Below, in pieces: positions 4,279 through 52,174 of a stretch of DNA of 58,807 nt. Both the position numbers and the translations under genes were made by a program. The DNA is taken from assembly GCA_022823365.1 (NCBI GenBank), contig JAJDXG010000025.1, positions 1 to 58,807 on the forward strand, in the 5' to 3' direction. Positions within the stretch are counted from its first letter, which is position 1. The number at the start of each line of letters is the position of its first letter. Under the pieces are notes generated by a model, which had not been told where the DNA came from, made no database searches, and was given only the letters and a program-made list of their open reading frames with translations. Origin of the DNA: Gemmatimonadota bacterium (GTDB lineage Bacteria; Gemmatimonadota; Gemmatimonadetes; Longimicrobiales; Gaopeijiaceae).

Positions 4279-5892
4279 TCAATCCCTCCCCTCGAGCGAA
4301 TCCAGAGCCGCCACGAACTCCGACCAGGGCACCGGCTCCCCGTGGACGGGCGCTACGGTGGACACCTCCAGCCCCATCCGCTCGATCTGGTTGTAGAAGC
4401 TCCGCATCGCCGGCAGTTGCGCCGGCCGGGGGGGCTCGTGCGTGTCGAAGAGATCCGCTTCGAATGCGATGCCCTCCTCCGGCAGGTAGGCCATCAGCAT
4501 CCCGGAGACGTGCTGCAGCGGCTGAACGTAGTAGACGCGAAGGATCCGGGAGTTGTCGGTGATGACGTAGTTCTCCTGGACCGCCTCGTAGTTGTAGCCC
4601 TCGGACAGCTCCGTGGGAGGCCACATGGAGACGATGTCCGGCTTCACGGTCCGGGGCTCGTAGACCAGCACGTCCGTGTTCAGGAACTCGAGGTTGATCA
4701 TGTGCGTGACGACCGTGGAGCCGATGTGCACGTAGGTCCTGAGCCCGCCGATGTGGTCGAAGTGGGGGTGCGAGGTGATGACCCAGCGGATCGGCTTGCC
4801 GGGGGCGAGCCGGACGATCTCCTCGATGACCGCGAGGCTCCGCTCCTCGTTTCCCGGGGCCTCGAATACGGCGACGAACTCGTCGAATTCCACCATGTAG
4901 CTGTTCGCGGGGCTCCCGCCCAGGAGGTAGACGCCGTCCGCCATCTCGGTGACGGTCACCTCTGTTTCGAAGGACGCCTCCGCGACTGACGGAGGCACGG
5001 GGCCCGGATCCGGGCACACGTTGGGCTGTACGTCCGGGAATCGGCCGCCGTAGCCGTTGTGACCCGTGCTCTGGCGGTAGAACTGCCAGTTGTCGTCCCA
5101 GCCCTGGTGGGAGTGCCACGCGATGGGCCACTTCACGTCGCCGAAGGTCAACTGCTCCGTCGACTCGTGCTCGATGTTGAAGTCGCCGAGCGCGGGTTCG
5201 TTGACCGTGGTCTTGATCCGCTGGATCTGGTTCTGCGGGTTGATCGTCGCGTCCACGCGATACTTGCCGAACATCGTGATCGCCACGACGTGCATCTTCT
5301 CCGGGCGGACCACATTCCCGTCCCGGCCCTTCTCGATCTGCTCCCAGCGCCAGAAGGCGACGGGATCGGCCCCGGGCAGGCGGGCGGCCTTGATGAAGCC
5401 GGGAGGATTGAGCCAGAGATCGAGCTGGTACAGTTCCGCGAGATCCGGCGGAACCGCAACGGGCTCTCCGTCCCCATCGATGTGCCAGGCCTTGTCGCCG
5501 CTCACGACATGGGTCTGTCGCGTTTGCGTCTGAGTCGGCGTGCCCCCCTCCCAGCCCACGCCGTACTTCCACGCGGCCGGACTGATGCCCGGTTCCCGGT
5601 CGAAGGTCTCTATGCTGGTCCGGGTCTCCCAGTTGATGCTTCGGGTGTAGTTGTTCAGGCCGCCGATCCGTGGCCAGTCCACGTTCACCGCGTTCTCGAA
5701 TGTCTGACCGACGGCTCCGCTGTAACCGTTACCGGAAAAAGTGATGCAGCGGAGATTCGCTTCGCCGATTTCCTCGGCGGCGGCAGCCAGGAGGGGATAG
5801 GGGTCGACGTATCCCGGCGGAAACTCCTGGGCAGCCGCCGAGTTCATCCAGAATGGGAGCAGGGCCAACGCCCCAAGAGTATTTCTGGCCAT
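4279..5892 (-). CDS. Secreted metallo-beta-lactamase-fold hydrolase
   Basis: The protein has 537 residues. A signal peptide covers residues 1-21, ending in NSAAAQ. Residues about 22-300 form a beta-rich domain without a recognised name; residues 310-537 are a metallo-beta-lactamase domain with TSHPHFDHIGG at about 373-383 (the intact HxHxDH zinc site), an Asp in EADLFDTH and a final His in APVHGEP. The fold hydrolyses many substrates (lactams, lactones, thioesters, phosphodiesters), so the reaction is not predictable. GGAGGAGG lies just upstream of ATG 5892. The two-part secreted architecture suggests a periplasmic or extracellular enzyme. It diverges from the efflux adaptor gene across a 258-base gap in which I see no clear operator. 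Confidence 0.82.
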   Translation of the reverse strand: MARNTLGALALLPFWMNSAAAQEFPPGYVDPYPLLAAAAEEIGEANLRCITFSGNGYSGAVGQTFENAVNVDWPRIGGLNNYTRSINWETRTSIETFDREPGISPAAWKYGVGWEGGTPTQTQTRQTHVVSGDKAWHIDGDGEPVAVPPDLAELYQLDLWLNPPGFIKAARLPGADPVAFWRWEQIEKGRDGNVVRPEKMHVVAITMFGKYRVDATINPQNQIQRIKTTVNEPALGDFNIEHESTEQLTFGDVKWPIAWHSHQGWDDNWQFYRQSTGHNGYGGRFPDVQPNVCPDPGPVPPSVAEASFETEVTVTEMADGVYLLGGSPANSYMVEFDEFVAVFEAPGNEERSLAVIEEIVRLAPGKPIRWVITSHPHFDHIGGLRTYVHIGSTVVTHMINLEFLNTDVLVYEPRTVKPDIVSMWPPTELSEGYNYEAVQENYVITDNSRILRVYYVQPLQHVSGMLMAYLPEEGIAFEADLFDTHEPPRPAQLPAMRSFYNQIERMGLEVSTVAPVHGEPVPWSEFVAALDSLEGRD

Positions 5893-42217: not shown

Positions 42218-43497
42218 CTCTGCTGCTGATGTTCCTGGGGATGATCGCGCTGGTGACGATCAACGTGCCCATCGCGGTCGCGCTGGGGGTCATCGCGCTG
42301 ATCGCGATGGTGGTGACCTCCGGGGCCGCGGCGATTCCCAACGCCGGTCTCGTGCTCTTCACGGGCGCCACCTCCTTCCCGCTGATCGCGATCCCGCTCT
42401 TCATCCTCGCGGGCGCGATCATGAACGCGACGGGCATCTCGCGCCGCCTGATCGCCTTCGCCTCCGCGCTCTTCGGCGCCATCCGCGGCGGGCTGGCGAT
42501 GGTCTCCATCTCGGCGTCCCTCTTCTTCGCCGAGATCTCCGGCTCCGCGGTGGCGGACGTGGCCGCGCTGGGGTCGATCCTGATCCCGGCGATGAAGAAG
42601 CGGGGCTACTCGACGCCCTTCGCGGCTGCCGTCACCTCGTCCTCGGCGACGCTCGCGGTCATCATCCCGCCATCCATCCCCATGATCATCTACGGGGTGA
42701 TGTCGGAGAGTTCGATCGTCGAACTGTTCGTGGCCGGGGTGGTGCCCGGCGTCGTCGGCGGCATCCTGCTGATGGCGGTGGCGTACGTGCTCGCGTTGCG
42801 AAACGGCTTCCCGGTGGAGCACGCATTCCAGTTGCGTCGGGTGTGGACCACCTTCCGCGACGCCGGCTGGGCGCTCCTCCTCCCGGTGATCATCCTGGGC
42901 GGGATCTTCACCGGATGGGTCACCGCCACCGAGGGAGCCGGGCTGGCGGTCGTGGCCGCCCTGGTGGTGGGCGGGATCATCTACCGGGAAATCGACCTGG
43001 CCGCGCTGCGTCGGGCCGCCCTCGACGGGGGCGTTCAGACCGCCGTGGTCATGCTGCTGGTGGCCACCTCGGCGCTGCTGGGCGACTACCTCACCGAGGC
43101 CCAGGTGCCGCAGCGGGTGGCGGACAGCATCATCGGCATCACCGAGTCGCGCTGGGCCATCCTCGCGCTGCTGAACGTCTTCTTCCTGGCGATCGGGCTC
43201 TTCCTGCATTCCGCCGCGGCCATCATCCTGGTCGTGCCCGTGGTGATGCCCCTGGTGCACGCGGCCGGCATCGACCCGGTGCACTTCGGCCTGGTGGTTA
43301 CCCTCAACCTGGGAATCGGGCAGCAGACCCCCCCGGTGGCCAGCGTGCTGGTGACCGCGTGCTCGGTGGCCAAGGCCGACATCTGGGACGTCAGCAAGGT
43401 CAACGTCTGGTTCGTGGCGGTGCTGCTGGCGGTGCTGGCGATGGTCACCTACCTGCCGGCTGTGCCGATGAGCCTGGTGGAACTCTTCTACCGGTAG
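42214..43497 (+). CDS. dctM: TRAP transporter large permease, DctM
   Basis: The protein has 427 residues from GTG 42214, overlapping the DctQ stop. About 12-13 hydrophobic helices fill it. DctM signature regions: FPLIAIPLFILAGAIMNATGISRRLI, ISASLFFAEISGSAVADVAALGSILIPAM, then SSSATLAVIIPPSIPMIIYG, and LNLGIGQQTPPVASVLVTACSVAK near the end. The large subunit carries the sodium and substrate pathway. The gene ends at 43497, and the first CTGCCA dyad begins 16 bases later. Substrate is likely a C2-C4 hydroxyacid or keto acid, inferred from the nearby dehydrogenase and aminotransferase. Confidence 0.9.
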   Translation: MTLLLMFLGMIALVTINVPIAVALGVIALIAMVVTSGAAAIPNAGLVLFTGATSFPLIAIPLFILAGAIMNATGISRRLIAFASALFGAIRGGLAMVSISASLFFAEISGSAVADVAALGSILIPAMKKRGYSTPFAAAVTSSSATLAVIIPPSIPMIIYGVMSESSIVELFVAGVVPGVVGGILLMAVAYVLALRNGFPVEHAFQLRRVWTTFRDAGWALLLPVIILGGIFTGWVTATEGAGLAVVAALVVGGIIYREIDLAALRRAALDGGVQTAVVMLLVATSALLGDYLTEAQVPQRVADSIIGITESRWAILALLNVFFLAIGLFLHSAAAIILVVPVVMPLVHAAGIDPVHFGLVVTLNLGIGQQTPPVASVLVTACSVAKADIWDVSKVNVWFVAVLLAVLAMVTYLPAVPMSLVELFYR

Positions 43498-43512
43498 CGG
43501 ACGCGCTTACGT

Positions 43513-43558
43513 CTGCCATTTTGTCAGGTGGCAATTGGTGAGTCTGCCAAAATGGCAG
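43513..43558. repeat. Doublet of CTGCCA dyads, locus A, 31 bp apart
   Basis: CTGCCATTTTGTCAG (43513-43527, one mismatch to a perfect dyad) and CTGCCAAAATGGCAG (43544-43558, perfect 6-3-6 inverted repeat) start 31 bases apart, separated by 16 bases. A second doublet with the same 31-base offset but unrelated spacer sequence is at 52129-52174. Equal phasing with unlike spacers suggests two protein-binding sites on one face of the helix rather than a copied hairpin. It lies between dctM and the first SUMF1-domain gene. Confidence 0.6.
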
Positions 43559-43622
43559 GTGGTCGCGGATCAGGATCCTGTTGCGGGCATTGAGGTTGGG
43601 AGTCTTGCCACTACCTATCGCG

Positions 43623-43661
43623 TATCGATATGTTGTGAGTCGTAATAACGACCATCGATAG
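43623..43661. promoter_or_regulatory. Candidate PadR operator region upstream of SUMF1 copy 1
   Basis: TATCGATA (43623-43630) and ATCGATAG (43654-43661) flank a perfect GTCGT-AATA-ACGAC dyad (43639-43652). A related TATCGAT ... CGATAG arrangement precedes the second SUMF1-domain gene (45021-45066). The A/T-rich content, dyad symmetry and a PadR gene in the downstream operon make an autoregulated promoter plausible; no -35/-10 pair was fixed. Confidence 0.35.
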
Positions 43662-43679
43662 TACGCCGGAGATTCCGCA

Positions 43680-44792
43680 ATGCACAAGAGAACGCGAGCC
43701 ATCCCGCCATGCGACGCCCCTTGGGGCCATCCACCTCCAACAGCCACTCCATGGATCGCCGCCATGCTGGCGCTGACCACCGGCGCGTGCGAGCCGATGC
43801 CTCGCGACGAGCAATCCGCACTTGCTCGCGACTCCGCAGGCGTGACGGAAATCGCCAACTTCGAACCGGACGAACAGGTTACGGCCATTGACGCTTCAAG
43901 GGAGACCGGCGCAGTCGTCAACCCGCAGATCCCGACCTCTTCCGGATTTCACGAGTTTCGCGACTGCCCGGAATGCCCGCTGATGGTGGAACTGCCTCCG
44001 GGCGAGTTTGTGATGGGACGAGGCGCGCACGAGAGGCCGGATCCCGGGAACCCGCCGCAACCTGAGTGGATGGTGGAGGCGCAGAAACCGCCTACCGAGG
44101 TGCGAATCGCATACTCCTTCGCCATCGGCAAATACGAAGTAACGTTCCGGGAATGGGACCTCTGCGTTGACGCGGGAGGGTGTACGTATGTGCCCGACGA
44201 CAACGGCTGGGGACGCGGCGACCGGCCGGTGATCAACCTCGCCCATCCCGATGTCGACCAGTACGTCACGTGGATCAGCGGACTCACGGGTCAGACCTAC
44301 CGCCTGCCCAGCGAGGCGGAGTGGGAATACGCCGCCCGAGGCGGCACGACGACAACCCGCTACTGGGGGGACAGGCCCGGCGCCGGCATGGTGACCTGTC
44401 AGGGTTGTCCAGGCCGATCGGACAATCACACCACCCCTGCTGGATCGTTTCCAGCCAATCCCTTCGGGCTCCACGACGTAATCGGGAATGCTCGGGAATG
44501 GGTTGCAGACTGCTGGAATGACACACATGAAGGGAATCCCGGCGATGGCTCTGCGAGGATAGAGGAATCGCCGTGGTGGCAGGACGGCACCTGCATCCGA
44601 CCGGTGAGGCGAGACGGTACATGGTCGTCGTATTCGTGGGCCGTAACGGCTGCCCACCGCACCTTCTACCACCCGGGCCCCTGGAGTAACCGCTACAACA
44701 TGCATGGTTTTCGTCTCGCGCGAGACATCACAGCCAACCAAACGGAAGAGCTGGACCTCGAACTGCGCTCACGGAGGCAAGATCGGCCATGA
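43680..44792 (+). CDS. SUMF1/FGE-like domain lipoprotein, copy 1 (no propeller)
   Basis: The protein has 370 residues. The N-terminus ends in TTGAC with Cys37 as probable lipidation site. The SUMF1-like domain fills residues about 95-350: CPLMVELPPGEFVMGRGAH, IGKYEVTFREWDLCVDAGG, YRLPSEAEWEYAARGGT, FGLHDVIGNAREWVADCW and YNMHGFRLARD. Formylglycine-generating enzymes need a copper-binding Cys pair in the C-terminal region; that part reads SYSWAVTAAHRTFYHPG and has none, so genuine formylglycine formation is unlikely. It matches copy 2 at 45088-47202 along most of its length but lacks the propeller. A broken PadR copy begins at its stop. Confidence 0.85.
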   Translation: MHKRTRAIPPCDAPWGHPPPTATPWIAAMLALTTGACEPMPRDEQSALARDSAGVTEIANFEPDEQVTAIDASRETGAVVNPQIPTSSGFHEFRDCPECPLMVELPPGEFVMGRGAHERPDPGNPPQPEWMVEAQKPPTEVRIAYSFAIGKYEVTFREWDLCVDAGGCTYVPDDNGWGRGDRPVINLAHPDVDQYVTWISGLTGQTYRLPSEAEWEYAARGGTTTTRYWGDRPGAGMVTCQGCPGRSDNHTTPAGSFPANPFGLHDVIGNAREWVADCWNDTHEGNPGDGSARIEESPWWQDGTCIRPVRRDGTWSSYSWAVTAAHRTFYHPGPWSNRYNMHGFRLARDITANQTEELDLELRSRRQDRP

Positions 44793-44882
44793 ACAAACCA
44801 GGTCTCGCCGTCCGGCCCCGGGATTCGACGCGCAGGGCCGCGCCGGGGGAATTCAGGAGCCGCTGATACTCGCCGCGGTGTC
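44789..44882 (+). pseudogene. Decayed PadR regulator fragment after SUMF1 copy 1
   Basis: ATGAACAAACCAGGT, then CGGGATTCGACGCGCAGGGCC and so on through GAGCCGCTGATACTCGCCGC, parallels the 5' end of the intact PadR gene at 47199 (ATGACCGAACCAGG, GGGAATTCGACGCGCAGGGC, GAGCTGCTGATCCTCGC). One base is missing in CGGGATTCG relative to CGGGAATTCG, and an in-frame TGA soon follows. Homology ends about 94 bases in. Its ATG overlaps the preceding stop as in the functional unit, showing that the ancestral unit was lipoprotein gene plus PadR. Confidence 0.75.
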
Positions 44883-44985
44883 GCTGCACGCGCCTGGGTG
44901 CCGTAGCGCCCTGGCCCGAAGATCTCCCGCCAATCCCCCCGCAACGCGCCGCCCTGTGTCGTGTGGCACAGGTGCCCATCGGCTT

Positions 44986-45001
44986 CCCCTCGCAGGAGGG
45001 G
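44986..45001 (+). other. Short GC hairpin after the decayed PadR fragment
   Basis: CCCCTC-GCAG-GAGGGG is a 6-bp stem with a four-base loop, followed by CTTCATCATG rather than a T-run. A second hairpin CCTGTG-N8-CACAGG lies just upstream. It could end transcription weakly or be an unrelated structure in this 295-base gene-poor gap. Confidence 0.3.
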
Positions 45002-45020
45002 CTTCATCATGTTGCCATAA

Positions 45021-45066
45021 TATCGATGATCGTTATATTGTCTTTCGTTATGTCGTCTCTCGATAG
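45021..45066. promoter_or_regulatory. Candidate PadR operator/promoter upstream of SUMF1 copy 2
   Basis: TATCGATG (45021-45028), the A/T-rich CGTTATATTG and CGATAG (45061-45066) mirror the region before copy 1. TTATATT could serve as a -10. The start at 45088 has a GGAGGAA ribosome site. Shared flanking motifs show the duplication included the control region. Confidence 0.35.
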
Positions 45067-45087
45067 GATGCAGGCGGAGGAAATCCC

Positions 45088-47202
45088 ATGCAAGCACGAA
45101 CGCGAGCCCACCCGTCATGCGGCGCCCCGCAACGCCATCCATCTCGAACAGCCACTCCATGGATCACCGTAATGCTGGCGCTGGCTACCAGCTCGTGCGA
45201 GCCGACGTCTCGCGACGTTCAGGCCGCGCTTGTGCGCGATTCCGCGGGCGTGACGGTAGTCGAGAACATCGGTCCGGAGGAACTGCTGGGCGCCCGGGCA
45301 GAGCGAATGATCGATCTCATCCCTCCCGACAGCGCGCTTACGGCGGTTCCGTGGGGCGTGGCCGCAGACCCGACGTCAGGCCGGATCTACCTGGCGGACT
45401 GGACGGGGCAGAGAGTCGCGGCCTTCGACGCTTCAGGGGCCTACGCGGGCAGCTATGGACGCTCAGGGGACGGACCTGGAGAGTTTCGGAACTCCTCCGC
45501 CGTCTCCCTGGATCCCGACGGGATACTGACCGTGTGGGATACCGGCCGACAGATGCTGAGCCGGTGGTCGAGTGAGGGCGAACTCCTGAGCGAGCAGCGA
45601 CCGGAACTGCCCTACTGGGGTCCGGGATTCGCAGTGGGAAGCGACTGGCTCGCCACGGTGACGAGTACCACCTCGGGGACGGTTACGGAGCAGCGACTTG
45701 TCGTCGGGGGAGGACAGAATACGACCACGCTGCATGAAGTCGCGATGGAACTGGCGACGATGGAGCTGGGCGGCAGCTCCATTCCAGCGCCCCGAGTGCT
45801 TGCTCCTTCGGTCATCTGGACGCACCGGGGAGACTCCATCTTCTTCCTGAACGGGCCGGGTTACCGCATCGACAAGCATGTCGGCGGCGCGGTGGTGGCG
45901 AGCATCAGATGGTCGGTGGATCCCATCGAAGTCACGCGGGAGATGGCCGTGAGGGGTGCGGAGTTCGGTCCCGGTCCCTATGGCATCTTCATGCGGCGCT
46001 TTGGGTTGGAGGCGGAGGACATCGTGATGGCGGTGGGATACGAGGAGCGGGTCTCGCCCGTGCTGTCGATGACCGCAGCACCCGGAGGCGATCTTTGGGT
46101 GACCCGCACTGCGGACGGGATGACGCCCCATTTCGTCGACATCTTCGATTCCTCGGGAGAGTACACGGGCTCGTTCGACGCACCCGGGGTTCCGGTTGCC
46201 GTGTTGTCTGACTCGGTCTTCGCGGGTCTTCGGCTGGAGTCGGTCGGAGAGACGATCGTCTCTCTCTACCGCCTGCGCCCTGCGGATGCCGCAGGGGCGC
46301 CGACGACCGAAGGCGGCGCTTCCACCAACCCGCGGATTCCGACCTCCTCTGGATTCCGTGAGTTCCGCGACTGTCCGGCTTGTCCCTTGATGGTTGAACT
46401 GCCTCCAGGCGAATACGTGATGGGACGAGGCGCGCACGAGAAGCCGGATCCCGCGGACGCGCCGCAACCCGAATGGACGGTCGAGGCGCAGAACCCGCCC
46501 ACCGAGGTGCGAATTGCGTATCCCTTCGCCATCGGAAAGTATGAAGTGACGTTCGCGGAATGGGACCTCTGCGTCGACGCCGGAGGGTGCACGTATGCGC
46601 CCGACGACAACGGCTGGGGACGCGGCGACCGGCCGGTGGTCAACCTCGCCCGTCCCGATGCCGACCAGTACATCACATGGATCAGCGACCTCACCGGTCA
46701 AACCTACCGACTGCCGAGCGAGGCCGAGTGGGAATACGCCGCGCGAGGCGGTACGACGACGACCCGTTATTGGGGCGATGGACTCGGCGCCGGCATGGTC
46801 ACCTGTGAAGGCTGCCGGGGGGATTGGGAACTCCGAACGACGACTCCCGCCGGGTCGTTTGCGGCCAACCCGTTCGGACTCCACGACGTGCTCGGGAATG
46901 CGCGGGAATGGGTTGCCGACTGCTGGAATGACTCTCATGAAGGGAATCCCGGCGATGGCTCCGCGAGGACGGAGGATTCTCCATGGTGGCAGGATGGCAC
47001 CTGTGTCCGGCCCGTAAGGCGAGGCGGTTTCTGGTCATCCGATTCGTGGTCGGTAACGGCTGCCTACCGCGGTTTCTACCACCCGGGGCCCTGGAGTGAC
47101 CGCTACAACATGTATGGTTTTCGTATCGTGAGAGACATCTCATCCAGCCAGGCGGAAGAGTCGGAACTCGAACTGCACTCACGGAGGCAAGACCAGCCAT
47201 GA
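45088..47202 (+). CDS. Lipoprotein fusing a six-bladed propeller to a SUMF1/FGE-like domain, copy 2
   Basis: The protein has 704 residues. ATG 45088 has GGAGGAA six bases upstream. Cys37 follows ATSS as a lipidation site. Residues about 70-395 form an NHL-like propeller (GVAADPTSGRIYLADWTGQRVAAFD, GYGRSGDGPGEF-type turn, AAPGGDLWVTR, ESVGETIVSLYRL). Residues 400-690 are a SUMF1-like domain almost identical in layout to copy 1, with YRLPSEAEWEYAARGG and FGLHDVLGNAREW, again without the FGE Cys pair. The junction IPTSSGF shows where copy 1 joins directly. Such a fusion may bind a peptide or glycan. ATGA overlap couples it to PadR. Confidence 0.88.
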   Translation: MQARTRAHPSCGAPQRHPSRTATPWITVMLALATSSCEPTSRDVQAALVRDSAGVTVVENIGPEELLGARAERMIDLIPPDSALTAVPWGVAADPTSGRIYLADWTGQRVAAFDASGAYAGSYGRSGDGPGEFRNSSAVSLDPDGILTVWDTGRQMLSRWSSEGELLSEQRPELPYWGPGFAVGSDWLATVTSTTSGTVTEQRLVVGGGQNTTTLHEVAMELATMELGGSSIPAPRVLAPSVIWTHRGDSIFFLNGPGYRIDKHVGGAVVASIRWSVDPIEVTREMAVRGAEFGPGPYGIFMRRFGLEAEDIVMAVGYEERVSPVLSMTAAPGGDLWVTRTADGMTPHFVDIFDSSGEYTGSFDAPGVPVAVLSDSVFAGLRLESVGETIVSLYRLRPADAAGAPTTEGGASTNPRIPTSSGFREFRDCPACPLMVELPPGEYVMGRGAHEKPDPADAPQPEWTVEAQNPPTEVRIAYPFAIGKYEVTFAEWDLCVDAGGCTYAPDDNGWGRGDRPVVNLARPDADQYITWISDLTGQTYRLPSEAEWEYAARGGTTTTRYWGDGLGAGMVTCEGCRGDWELRTTTPAGSFAANPFGLHDVLGNAREWVADCWNDSHEGNPGDGSARTEDSPWWQDGTCVRPVRRGGFWSSDSWSVTAAYRGFYHPGPWSDRYNMYGFRIVRDISSSQAEESELELHSRRQDQP

Positions 47203-47570
47203 CCGAACCAGGCTCCCGCAGAACCCGGGAATTCGACGCGCAGGGCTTCGCCCGGGGAATCCACGAGCTGCTGATCCTCGCTGCCCTGCGGGAGGGTCCC
47301 AGGCACGGCTACCAGATCGCCCTGGATGTGGAGGCACACAGCAACGGGGTCTTTCGGTTCCGACACGGCACCCTGTATCCGATCCTGCACCGGATGGACG
47401 TGAACGGGCTCATCCTGGGCCGCTGGTCGAGCGGATCAGGTCGCAGGAAGAAGGTCTACTCCCTGACGGATGCCGGCCGCAGGCATCTCAGCGGACAGAC
47501 GGACCGGGTTCAGGAGATCCTGTCCGGGCTCACACGGATGCTGCGCCGTGTGCGGGAGCTCCCGGCGTGA
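47199..47570 (+). CDS. PadR-family transcriptional regulator
   Basis: The protein has 123 residues. GIHELLILAALREGPRHGYQIALDVEAHSNGVFRFRHGTLYPILHRMDVNGLILGRWSSGSGRRKKVYSLTDAGRRHL is the winged helix typical of PadR regulators, with the GTLYP-LHR wing motif. They repress neighbouring operons and release on a small ligand. It overlaps the propeller-SUMF1 gene by 4 bases and the HAAS-domain gene by 4 bases, so all are coupled. Likely operators are the TATCGAT/CGATAG motifs before both SUMF1 copies. A broken copy lies at 44789-44882. Confidence 0.9.
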   Translation: MTEPGSRRTREFDAQGFARGIHELLILAALREGPRHGYQIALDVEAHSNGVFRFRHGTLYPILHRMDVNGLILGRWSSGSGRRKKVYSLTDAGRRHLSGQTDRVQEILSGLTRMLRRVRELPA

Positions 47571-48454
47571 GCGCTGAAGTCTCGCCACGGGAGTTGCCGT
47601 CGCCGCCAAGGGAATCGGCGCACGCGAAGCCGGCCGGAGCGAAGCCATTCCAGGCGACGCTGCGCAGGCTGGATCGGGATCTGACAGTCCCCATGCCGGA
47701 CCGCCTCAGGATCCTGCGTGAACTCGAGTTCGATCTCGAGGCGCTCTCGGATGAAATCGAAGCCCGGGGCATGCCGGCCGCAGAGGCTCGCGCTCGTGCG
47801 CTCGACGCCCTCGTGCCCGACGGGGCGACGCTCCGCGAACTCGACCGGCTGCACGCCCCGCACTACCGCCGACTCACCGGCCACTTCAGTCCGGGCCGCC
47901 TGCGAACCATCGAGCGCTCGGCACTCGCGCTGGTCACCGCGGTCGTGCTTCTCACGGAGACCTTTCTGCTCCTGCGGGTCGACTGGTTTCGTCATGCGTC
48001 GCCCTTCCTGTGGCCGGTTCTCGGACTCGGCGCGCTCCTGTTCGCGGCTATCGCCACCCAGTCGTTCAGGCTATGGGTGAAGCACGACCACCAGGACGCG
48101 ACAGCGAGCTTCCGGGTCATCCTGTTCCTGTCCGGCCTGACGCTCGCCACGAGCATCTTCGGCGCCCTCGCCGACTTCTTCCGGCTCGCCGGAGTACTGG
48201 AGGCCGAGCCCGGGCTGGCCGGATCGCTCCTCCCCGAGTGGCTGGCCGGGAGCTGCATCCTGCTCTCGTTCTCGCTGCTGTCGGCCCTGGCCGGGGGGCT
48301 GGCCTGGTTCATTCCGGCGCACCGGCTCGCGCTCGTATCCGGGGCGCACGCCGAGCTGCTGGGCCATCCCCTGCCGAACATCCGCCCCGGAGCGCCGCAG
48401 TCGTCCGACCTTGCTCATCCACACCATTCCCGGTCGCCAGGAGAATCATCATGA
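47567..48454 (+). CDS. HAAS/permease-prefix-domain membrane protein without FtsX
   Basis: The protein has 295 residues from GTG 47567 (overlapping the PadR stop). Residues about 25-85 contain RLRILRELEFDLEALSDEIEARGMPAAEARARALDAL, a HAAS-like helical domain commonly fused to the N-terminus of PadR-controlled FtsX permeases. Here it leads instead to four hydrophobic segments (about 115-135, 150-170, 178-200, 215-240). The PadR plus HAAS context implies PadR-controlled membrane response, but no ABC permease is attached. The next gene, TolQ-like, overlaps by 4 bases. A role as a helper for that complex is conjecture. Confidence 0.75.
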   Translation: MSAEVSPRELPSPPRESAHAKPAGAKPFQATLRRLDRDLTVPMPDRLRILRELEFDLEALSDEIEARGMPAAEARARALDALVPDGATLRELDRLHAPHYRRLTGHFSPGRLRTIERSALALVTAVVLLTETFLLLRVDWFRHASPFLWPVLGLGALLFAAIATQSFRLWVKHDHQDATASFRVILFLSGLTLATSIFGALADFFRLAGVLEAEPGLAGSLLPEWLAGSCILLSFSLLSALAGGLAWFIPAHRLALVSGAHAELLGHPLPNIRPGAPQSSDLAHPHHSRSPGESS

Positions 48455-48852
48455 GCGCTATCGAAGCCTTTCAAGCCATCGGCGTCATGCGCTGGCCCCT
48501 CGCGTTCTCCCTGCTGGCCGTCGTCGCCCTCGCGCTCAGGTCGTTCCGGCTCGTCAAGCCCGACGCCATGCCCGACCGGCACGCCAAGGCATGGATCGAC
48601 GCCATTCTGTTCTGGGGAGGATTTGCGGTCATAACCGGAGTACTTAGCACGCTGGTCGGCATCATCATCGCCGCTCAGACCATCGAGACCATGGACGGAC
48701 TCTCGGCCGGGCTGATCTGGGGAGGCATCAAGGTCGCGCTCCTCAGCTCCGCGCTCGGCACCCTGATTCTGGCCGTCGCTTCCCTGCTCTGGTTCGGACT
48801 ACAGCTACGCTGGCGCTTCCTGATCACCGAACACGCCGGCGGTGCCGCATAG
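48451..48852 (+). CDS. Small MotA/TolQ/ExbB-like membrane protein
   Basis: The protein has 133 residues from ATG 48451, overlapping the previous stop as ATGA. Three helices occur (about 13-30, 50-74, 88-118). FWGGFAVITGVLSTLVGIIIAAQTIE, then LSAGLIWGGIKVALLSSALGTLILAVA, follows the conserved helix pair of TolQ/ExbB/MotA proton channels, although at 133 residues it is shorter than canonical ones and lacks the large cytoplasmic loop. A partner of TolR/ExbD type is not found in the window. Its placement after PadR and the HAAS protein suggests one regulated membrane module. Confidence 0.75.
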   Translation: MSAIEAFQAIGVMRWPLAFSLLAVVALALRSFRLVKPDAMPDRHAKAWIDAILFWGGFAVITGVLSTLVGIIIAAQTIETMDGLSAGLIWGGIKVALLSSALGTLILAVASLLWFGLQLRWRFLITEHAGGAA

Positions 48853-48930
48853 GCCCTTGCGGCAAGGCCCATCGGCGTTCCGCGACGGGCACGTCCACGC
48901 TTGTGCCATCGTCCGTTCCGGCGTCGCCGG

Positions 48931-52128: not shown

Positions 52129-52174
52129 CTGCCAAAATGGCAGATCGGGCGAGGCAAATCTGCCAAAACGGCAG
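52129..52174. repeat. Doublet of CTGCCA dyads, locus B, 31 bp apart
   Basis: CTGCCAAAATGGCAG (52129-52143, perfect) and CTGCCAAAACGGCAG (52160-52174, one mismatch) start 31 bases apart with 16 bases between. They lie in the 67-base gap between the convergent VOC and lactamase-fold genes. The spacer, ATCGGGCGAGGCAAAT, differs from that of locus A, but the spacing is identical. Confidence 0.6.

Follow-up and report, generated by a model that had tools for sequence, protein, structure and literature searches.

A tandem pair of SUMF1 lipoprotein genes in a Gemmatimonadota bacterium, with apparent loss of a propeller and truncation of padR in one paralogue

Standalone PadR regulators encoded beside HAAS-type membrane proteins have been suggested to take the place of two-component systems (PMC11237479). 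In that proposal, the PadR gene overlaps a membrane-protein gene whose product has an N-terminal part bearing a GxP motif, and the envelope-linked partners named for these dyads include PspC, Toastrack, LiaI-LiaF-TM, FtsX/MacB, FtsW and others. A cassette that resembles this organisation, with partners absent from that list, is found in a Gemmatimonadota bacterium (GenBank assembly GCA_022823365.1, contig JAJDXG010000025.1). The whole stretch analysed, 58,807 nucleotides (nt), is referred to as the window, and corresponds to contig C52 of genome G000, a 3.8-Mb draft of 63 contigs. Here, one partner is a lipoprotein that combines a propeller with a SUMF1 domain, the other is ExbB-like, and of the two tandem lipoprotein genes one has lost its PadR. 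In the reading that we consider likely, the two copies are tandem paralogues of old origin, and copy 1 later lost its propeller in frame and had its padR truncated, with the leader, the SUMF1 domain and the promoter being kept; it would be controlled in trans within a HAAS-PadR-like cassette.

The lipoproteins themselves also have described relatives. By sequence, the best solved relative of the SUMF1 domain is PvdO from Pseudomonas aeruginosa (PDB 5hha; expect value (E) 8.9e-29), which is also the nearest by fold of the copy 1 model (E 6.9e-20) and has the same start, F(K/R)DCxxCP; it differs from the present proteins, in which a lipoprotein leader and a linker or propeller are present. The scores against the NCBIfam equivalog model of PvdO (NF051459, named dihydropyoverdine dehydrogenase) are 126.0 and 124.2 bits, far below the cut-off of 500. 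Formylglycine-generating enzymes have the same fold, and PF03781 is matched here well above its gathering score, but their C-terminal pair of cysteines (C336 and C341 in the human enzyme, from the titles of PDB 2aft and 2afy) is absent. Neither protein contains any cysteine C-terminal to C305 (copy 1) or C639 (copy 2), and thus the catalytic pair of formylglycine-generating enzymes would be missing. PvdO has a role in pyoverdine maturation. The SUMF1 domain would presumably have a PvdO-like binding or oxidising role in the envelope, and not that of a formylglycine-generating enzyme.

An earlier note on this DNA, made from the sequence letters, had described a 370-residue copy 1 and a 704-residue copy 2 with a common leader, SUMF1 domain and promoter. 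Both reading frames were recovered at the places given (Table 1), and the common parts are borne out by a motif search and by ungapped DNA repeats, with 80% identity over 186 nt between the leaders (43690-43875 and 45098-45283) and 84% in each of two 300-nt blocks of the SUMF1 parts. PF03781 is the sole domain match of copy 1 (residues 99-348, E 1.2e-39) and recurs in copy 2 at residues 432-682 (E 2.9e-39). The propeller, as had been noted, is matched in copy 2 only: there is a weak NHL match at residues 87-113 (E 4.1e-4; 20.7 bits, cut-off 20), a match to the six-bladed propeller DUF5128 at residues 97-171 (E 9e-5), whose 22.2 bits are slightly below the cut-off of 22.9, and matches to NHL propellers of known structure. 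The model of copy 2 predicted from the single sequence reached a mean pLDDT of only 32.5 and is unusable, so that the propeller rests on the profile and sequence matches; in the model of copy 1 the SUMF1 core folds well and residues 27-86 (rest of the leader, propeller remnant and linker) have low confidence. Copy 2 thus resembles NHL-type six-bladed propeller lipoproteins, from which it differs by the fusion of the propeller to SUMF1, whereas copy 1 has dropped the propeller. A third, full-length copy, missed in the earlier note, is present in the same genome (C63:162823-164958, 78% identical), where other places also match the propeller part of copy 2.

Table 1. Positions in the window of the two lipoprotein genes, their regulatory elements and the surrounding island.
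Feature	Position	Strand	Remarks
Copy 1	43680-44792	+	Lipoprotein leader, linker and SUMF1 domain, without propeller; 370 amino acids (aa)
In-frame crumb of the lost propeller	43882-43902	+	18 of 21 nt as in copy 2, 45419-45439
padR start, truncated and frameshifted	44789-44876	+	About 86 of 372 nt left; net shift 2 nt
Copy 2	45088-47202	+	Lipoprotein leader, six-bladed-propeller-type region and SUMF1 domain; 704 aa
Intact PadR regulator	47199-47570	+	123 aa, 372 nt; start overlaps the stop of copy 2
295-aa protein	47567-48454	+	N-terminal HAAS/permease-prefix-like part, RGMP motif, then four hydrophobic segments
MotA/TolQ/ExbB-like membrane protein	48451-48852	+	133 aa; PF01618
Operator-like motif of copy 1 (TATCGNNNATCGNTATNNTGT)	43616-43636	+	Motif search, 0 mismatches
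Operator-like motif of copy 2	45021-45041	+	Motif search, 0 mismatches
Island with both copies, padR, HAAS-like and ExbB-like genes	43559-48908	+	About 5.35 kb; borders approximate
Palindrome pair CTGCCATTTTGTCAG / CTGCCAAAATGGCAG 3' of dctM	43513-43558	.	Adjoins the left border of the island

The earlier note spoke of gain or loss of the propeller, and proposed that the ancestral form be sought in relatives. Fused propeller-SUMF1 genes occur at the third locus of G000, in other members of the genus and in two further genera, and these forms, together with the crumb left in frame within copy 1, establish loss from copy 1, and no gain in copy 2, as the evident change of architecture. The agreement of the crumb with the propeller was equalled by only one of 1000 base shuffles of the junction, and the corresponding position of the propeller was the best or tied in all eight fused or propeller genes examined (14-18 of 21 nt); in G005_C30 it shared this rank with one other place, and in G003 with places out of frame. 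Unprompted, MAFFT also set QVTAIDAS in copy 1 against RVAAFDAS in the propeller. In the simplest history, two in-frame deletions, with a net loss of 334 codons, would have removed the propeller and left a crumb of about seven residues. Outside the genus, all 14 loci matching copy 1 at E 1e-60 were fetched, and fusion in one frame was found at 11 of 11 loci of genus g2 and at one of two loci of genus g7 (in G016 the start is cut by a contig end); in these fused genes identity is 40-48% for the propeller and 50-57% for the SUMF1 domain. The unfused loci among the 14 are G045 (g7), with SUMF1 only, and G119, a SUMF1 gene with a weak propeller match elsewhere on the opposite strand. Within the genus, a distant gene of G010 is also fused. 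Among 121 genomes of the family, a SUMF1 match starting at residue 1 of copy 1 is found only in G000 and its congener G005.

Two other genes give a hint of possible further, independent losses of a propeller. In G001, a second SUMF1 lipoprotein gene (L042:4714-5826, reverse strand; domain 52% identical) lies directly upstream of a lone copy-2-type gene, in divergent orientation to it, and its leader keeps HDSVGV, comparable to RDSAGV of the propeller lipoproteins. The alignment of this leader with that of the distant fused gene of G010 was beaten or equalled by four of 1000 shuffles, with values of 14 of 1000 for copy 2 and 355 of 1000 for the third locus. In G119 (L189, reverse strand, before the SUMF1 domain at 5613), the leader SVRDTTSVTD could by eye be a remnant of VRDSAGVT. 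This is a hint only, because a shared signal-peptide make-up raises leader alignment scores.

A frameshifted PadR remnant had been described after copy 1, exactly where the intact gene follows copy 2. The register holds, and the remnant is truncated as well as frameshifted; its start is 84% identical to that of the intact gene over 61 ungapped nt (44816-44876 and 47224-47284). A longer remnant was considered and rejected, as the following 116 nt align to padR no better than shuffled sequences (259 of 500 as high). Together with the propeller, most of padR has thus evidently been lost from the copy 1 unit, in G005 as in G000. Still present in the copy 1 unit are the lipoprotein leader, the SUMF1/PvdO-like domain and the promoter, which contains the operator-like motif. 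The intact protein is a standalone PadR-type winged-helix regulator (PF03551, 85.8 bits against a gathering score of 27), and the close PadR homologues detected in G000 at E 1e-8 are two, both inside these cassettes. GGAG stands directly 5' of padR in all 13 places examined, namely the remnant and 12 padR genes, nine of these places having GGAGG, and this conserved element is presumably the ribosome site of padR.

The earlier note had also called the duplication recent-looking, which dating by synonymous divergence (Ks) contradicts. Between the SUMF1 parts of copies 1 and 2, Ks is 0.594 in G000 and 0.632 in G005, and between the G000 and G005 orthologues it is 0.121 for copy 1 and 0.121 for copy 2. 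The first distance being about five times the second, the duplication is older than the separation of G000 and G005, and a recent origin is rejected by these values and by the grouping with orthologues. For comparison, two computed pairs of orthologues from the core locus of this family give Ks of 0.158 and 0.222, and the neighbouring dctM gene gives 0.14-0.28 between G000 and five members of the genus (five of eight possible pairwise values). G000 and G005 are 97.0% identical in copy 1, 96.3% in copy 2 and 95.9% in both dctM and a TMEM260-like gene; these similar identities of copies and flanks indicate that the arrangement has diverged together with its neighbours.

Separate grouping of the copies with distinct orthologues had been named as the sign of no local duplication, and half of this was found: copy 1 and copy 2 each cluster with their respective G005 orthologue, and the copies are still paralogous to each other. 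In the protein tree, the two copy 1 genes stand together (100/97), outside a group of the G003 second SUMF1 domain, the G001 gene and copy 2 (81/80), all of these being apart from the core-locus type (87/89); the second and third of these supports are moderate. By Ks, the G001 gene (0.19) and the G003 second domain (0.38) lie nearer to copy 2 than copy 1 does, and the distance between copy 1 and the third locus (0.61) is much the same as that between copies 1 and 2 (0.59). Of the earlier note, two paralogous units in direct tandem, their diverged architecture and the decay of padR after copy 1 are supported.

A mosaic origin of copy 1 was considered. The first 519 nt of its SUMF1 part have 15 sites of the core-locus type (A) and five of the copy-2 type (B), and the rest has five A and 21 B; 10 of 5000 permutations gave a pattern as strong (for the copy in G005, which is not independent, 29 of 5000). 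Separate trees of both SUMF1 parts nevertheless agree in giving copy 1 a branch of its own, placed between B and A; the pattern is thus equally well explained by rates that differ along the domain, and recombination is not claimed. The G003 second domain has the same kind of pattern (0 of 5000 permutations) and groups with B over the whole domain (92.7/94) and its first part (96.3/99), and weakly in its last part. The DNA trees leave out separate and reverse-strand SUMF1 genes and G010_C41, the propeller trees leave out the broken G002 gene, and the lipoprotein alignment leaves out L088 (stop inside the slice), L099, L102, L104, L108 and L112.

Between G000 and G005, copy 1 has seven nonsynonymous and 21 synonymous changes over 350 codons, with a ratio of nonsynonymous to synonymous divergence (Ka/Ks) of 0.099; the value for the SUMF1 part of copy 2, 0.155, is above it. 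Copy 1 looks to be under purifying selection in this comparison, and, from this one genome pair, we favour the reading of a working gene.

The regulatory part of the cassette follows copy 2. The order lipoprotein, padR, HAAS-like gene and ExbB-like gene recurs at the third locus, and the 133-aa ExbB-like protein barely reaches the gathering score of PF01618 (24.0 against 22.9 bits). In the HAAS-like protein, R-G-x-P is present in 10 of 11 aligned sequences of the genus, with RGVS in G006, and RGY without P in three distant sequences (alignment of 14 sequences, without G009). The motif TATCGNNNATCGNTATNNTGT, with at most one mismatch, occurs three times in the 3.8-Mb genome (control pattern, none), and the three sites precede the start codons of the three copies by 64, 67 and 72 nt, the padR-less copy 1 included. 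Over 11 genomes, all 12 sites with at most one mismatch precede a cassette gene, as do 10 of 19 with exactly two mismatches (some being the other strand of the same promoter), and the control pattern has two matches at up to two mismatches. It may be proposed that PadR represses its own operon through this operator, that an envelope signal reaches PadR through the HAAS-type membrane protein, and that the output in the envelope consists of the lipoproteins together with the ExbB-like protein. Trans control of copy 1 would then come from the PadR encoded after copy 2, and probably also from that of the third locus. The cassette resembles a variant of the proposed HAAS-PadR kind and would not be categorically new. 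Among the papers listed by a literature search there was none on a propeller-SUMF1 lipoprotein with PadR, which does not prove that none exists.

The lipoprotein family is variable across the genus, in which 10 of 11 genomes match at E 1e-30, the exception being G004 (67% complete). The core locus has one SUMF1 domain in G000, G005, G006, G007 (with TAA near the end) and G002, where the fused lipoprotein frame is broken inside the propeller and the downstream padR is still open (L047:5421-7399). In G003 (L044:8601-11591), a single frame of 1010 codons encodes the propeller together with a first SUMF1 domain that is of the core-locus type and a second that is of the copy-2 type. In G001 (L043:5522-6810) and G010 (L048:7921-9288), most or nearly all of SUMF1 has been deleted and the last codons before padR have been kept, with a short tail in the former and about the last 40 residues in the latter; in G008 and G009 no core-locus SUMF1 is recognisable by tblastn. 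These deletions would spare the last SUMF1 codons because the ribosome site of padR lies there.

One genus thus holds propeller with SUMF1, propeller only, SUMF1 only, and propeller with two SUMF1 domains, the promoter and the cassette being largely constant, which is a natural experiment that allows direct tests of what each module does and of what a HAAS-PadR-like cassette does when it has an orphan target. A broader interpretation, which we offer tentatively and consider rather unlikely, is that of an envelope lipoprotein built of two modules, each of which can be dispensed with by itself, under a single private operator and PadR-HAAS cassette: the propeller would have been deleted in frame in copy 1, SUMF1 at the core locus lost or shortened in G001 and G010, as probably also in G008 and G009, and SUMF1 doubled in G003. 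Copy 1 would be a padR-less satellite controlled in trans, and the cassette may serve mix-and-match envelope sensing and not reflect simple decay. Domain loss after an old duplication is in itself ordinary, and the locus is an instructive case of gene-family remodelling.

The island is present after dctM in G000 and in G005, where the same layout extends over 8.3 kb at 96% identity. The dctM gene was found in nine of 11 genus genomes; in G006, G008 and G009 the TMEM260-like gene comes immediately after it, and in G001, G002, G003 and G007 other DNA does (the contig ends soon in G003 and G007). In the dctM tree, G005 stands with G006 and G007 (96.6/94) and not with G000, so that the island was either lost in some lineages or moved by recombination.

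Several observations weigh against the reading of copy 1 as an old, propeller-less and trans-controlled tandem paralogue. A single gain of the island requires losses or recombination, given the dctM tree. The HAAS assignment of the 295-aa protein is weak (perm_prefix_1 at 17.1 bits, cut-off 30; no Pfam match). Nine of the 19 operator-like sites with exactly two mismatches lie elsewhere, copy 2 of G005 and the G008 and G009 genes match the motif only at two mismatches, and common descent, not PadR binding, could conserve it. The test of the crumb consisted of 1000 base shuffles only, the family also includes SUMF1-only lipoproteins whose leaders are different (G045, G119), and separate SUMF1-only genes are present in G003, G008, G009, G010 and G001. 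These last genes, with that of G045, are what a gain of the propeller by copy 2 from a SUMF1-only ancestor could call upon, together with relatives in many phyla that match only or mainly over SUMF1 among the matches listed (at least 80 loci). That scan, which may omit records near the window, used two SUMF1 patterns with matches mainly in SUMF1, and since both lie within the domain it says nothing on fusion; against the fused forms in three genera, the in-frame crumb and a copy 1 leader common to propeller-only relatives, a gain is very improbable. Some decay of copy 1 is possible, as in G005 a 2-nt deletion near its 3' end alters the last residues, and RDG stands where copy 2 and most aligned relatives have RGG. 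Added to the destruction of its own padR in both genomes, these changes would suit a pseudogene on its way out, an explanation that the low Ka/Ks, below that of the SUMF1 part of copy 2, and the intact promoter and operator-like motif make unlikely.

It could also be that no duplication happened here, and that already diverged paralogues or a ready-made tandem were inserted at the variable site that follows dctM. In three genomes this site is empty and in four it holds other DNA, copy 1 is equally distant from copy 2 and the third locus, and copy 2 is near a lone gene elsewhere in G001. On the other hand, the units are homologous, adjacent and in the same orientation, with boundaries in register down to the padR start, as unequal tandem duplication usually leaves them, at this or another place, and the 5' end of copy 1 agrees with the copy-2 type at 16 of the 21 sites that are informative (four of the other type, one of neither). 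We regard this alternative as possible, if clearly the less probable one; as for the tandem duplication claimed in the earlier note, tandem paralogy and the register of padR stand, recency falls, and the pair may have arisen in place or have arrived ready-made. An assembly artefact, a collapsed or chimeric repeat in a draft of 63 contigs with 84%-identical repeats, is scarcely credible, the copies differing by about 16%, too much to collapse, and G005 having the same layout. The reading of copy 1 as an old tandem paralogue is retained as the likely one.

A palindrome pair adjoins the left border of the island. The palindrome CTGCCAWWWTGGCAG occurs at 10 places in G000 (control pattern, none), among them 43513-43558 and 52129-52174 of the window, and several places are paired, 24 or 31 nt apart. 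The lone copy-2-type gene of G001 (L042:8037) also ends beside a palindrome pair. In G008 (L072:6104-6176) and G009 (L073:5585-5657), the 3' end of dctM (73 nt) and half of the palindrome pair are repeated beyond the TMEM260-like gene, the repeat being 89% identical to window positions 43456-43528, which hints that the TMEM260-like neighbour was also inserted.

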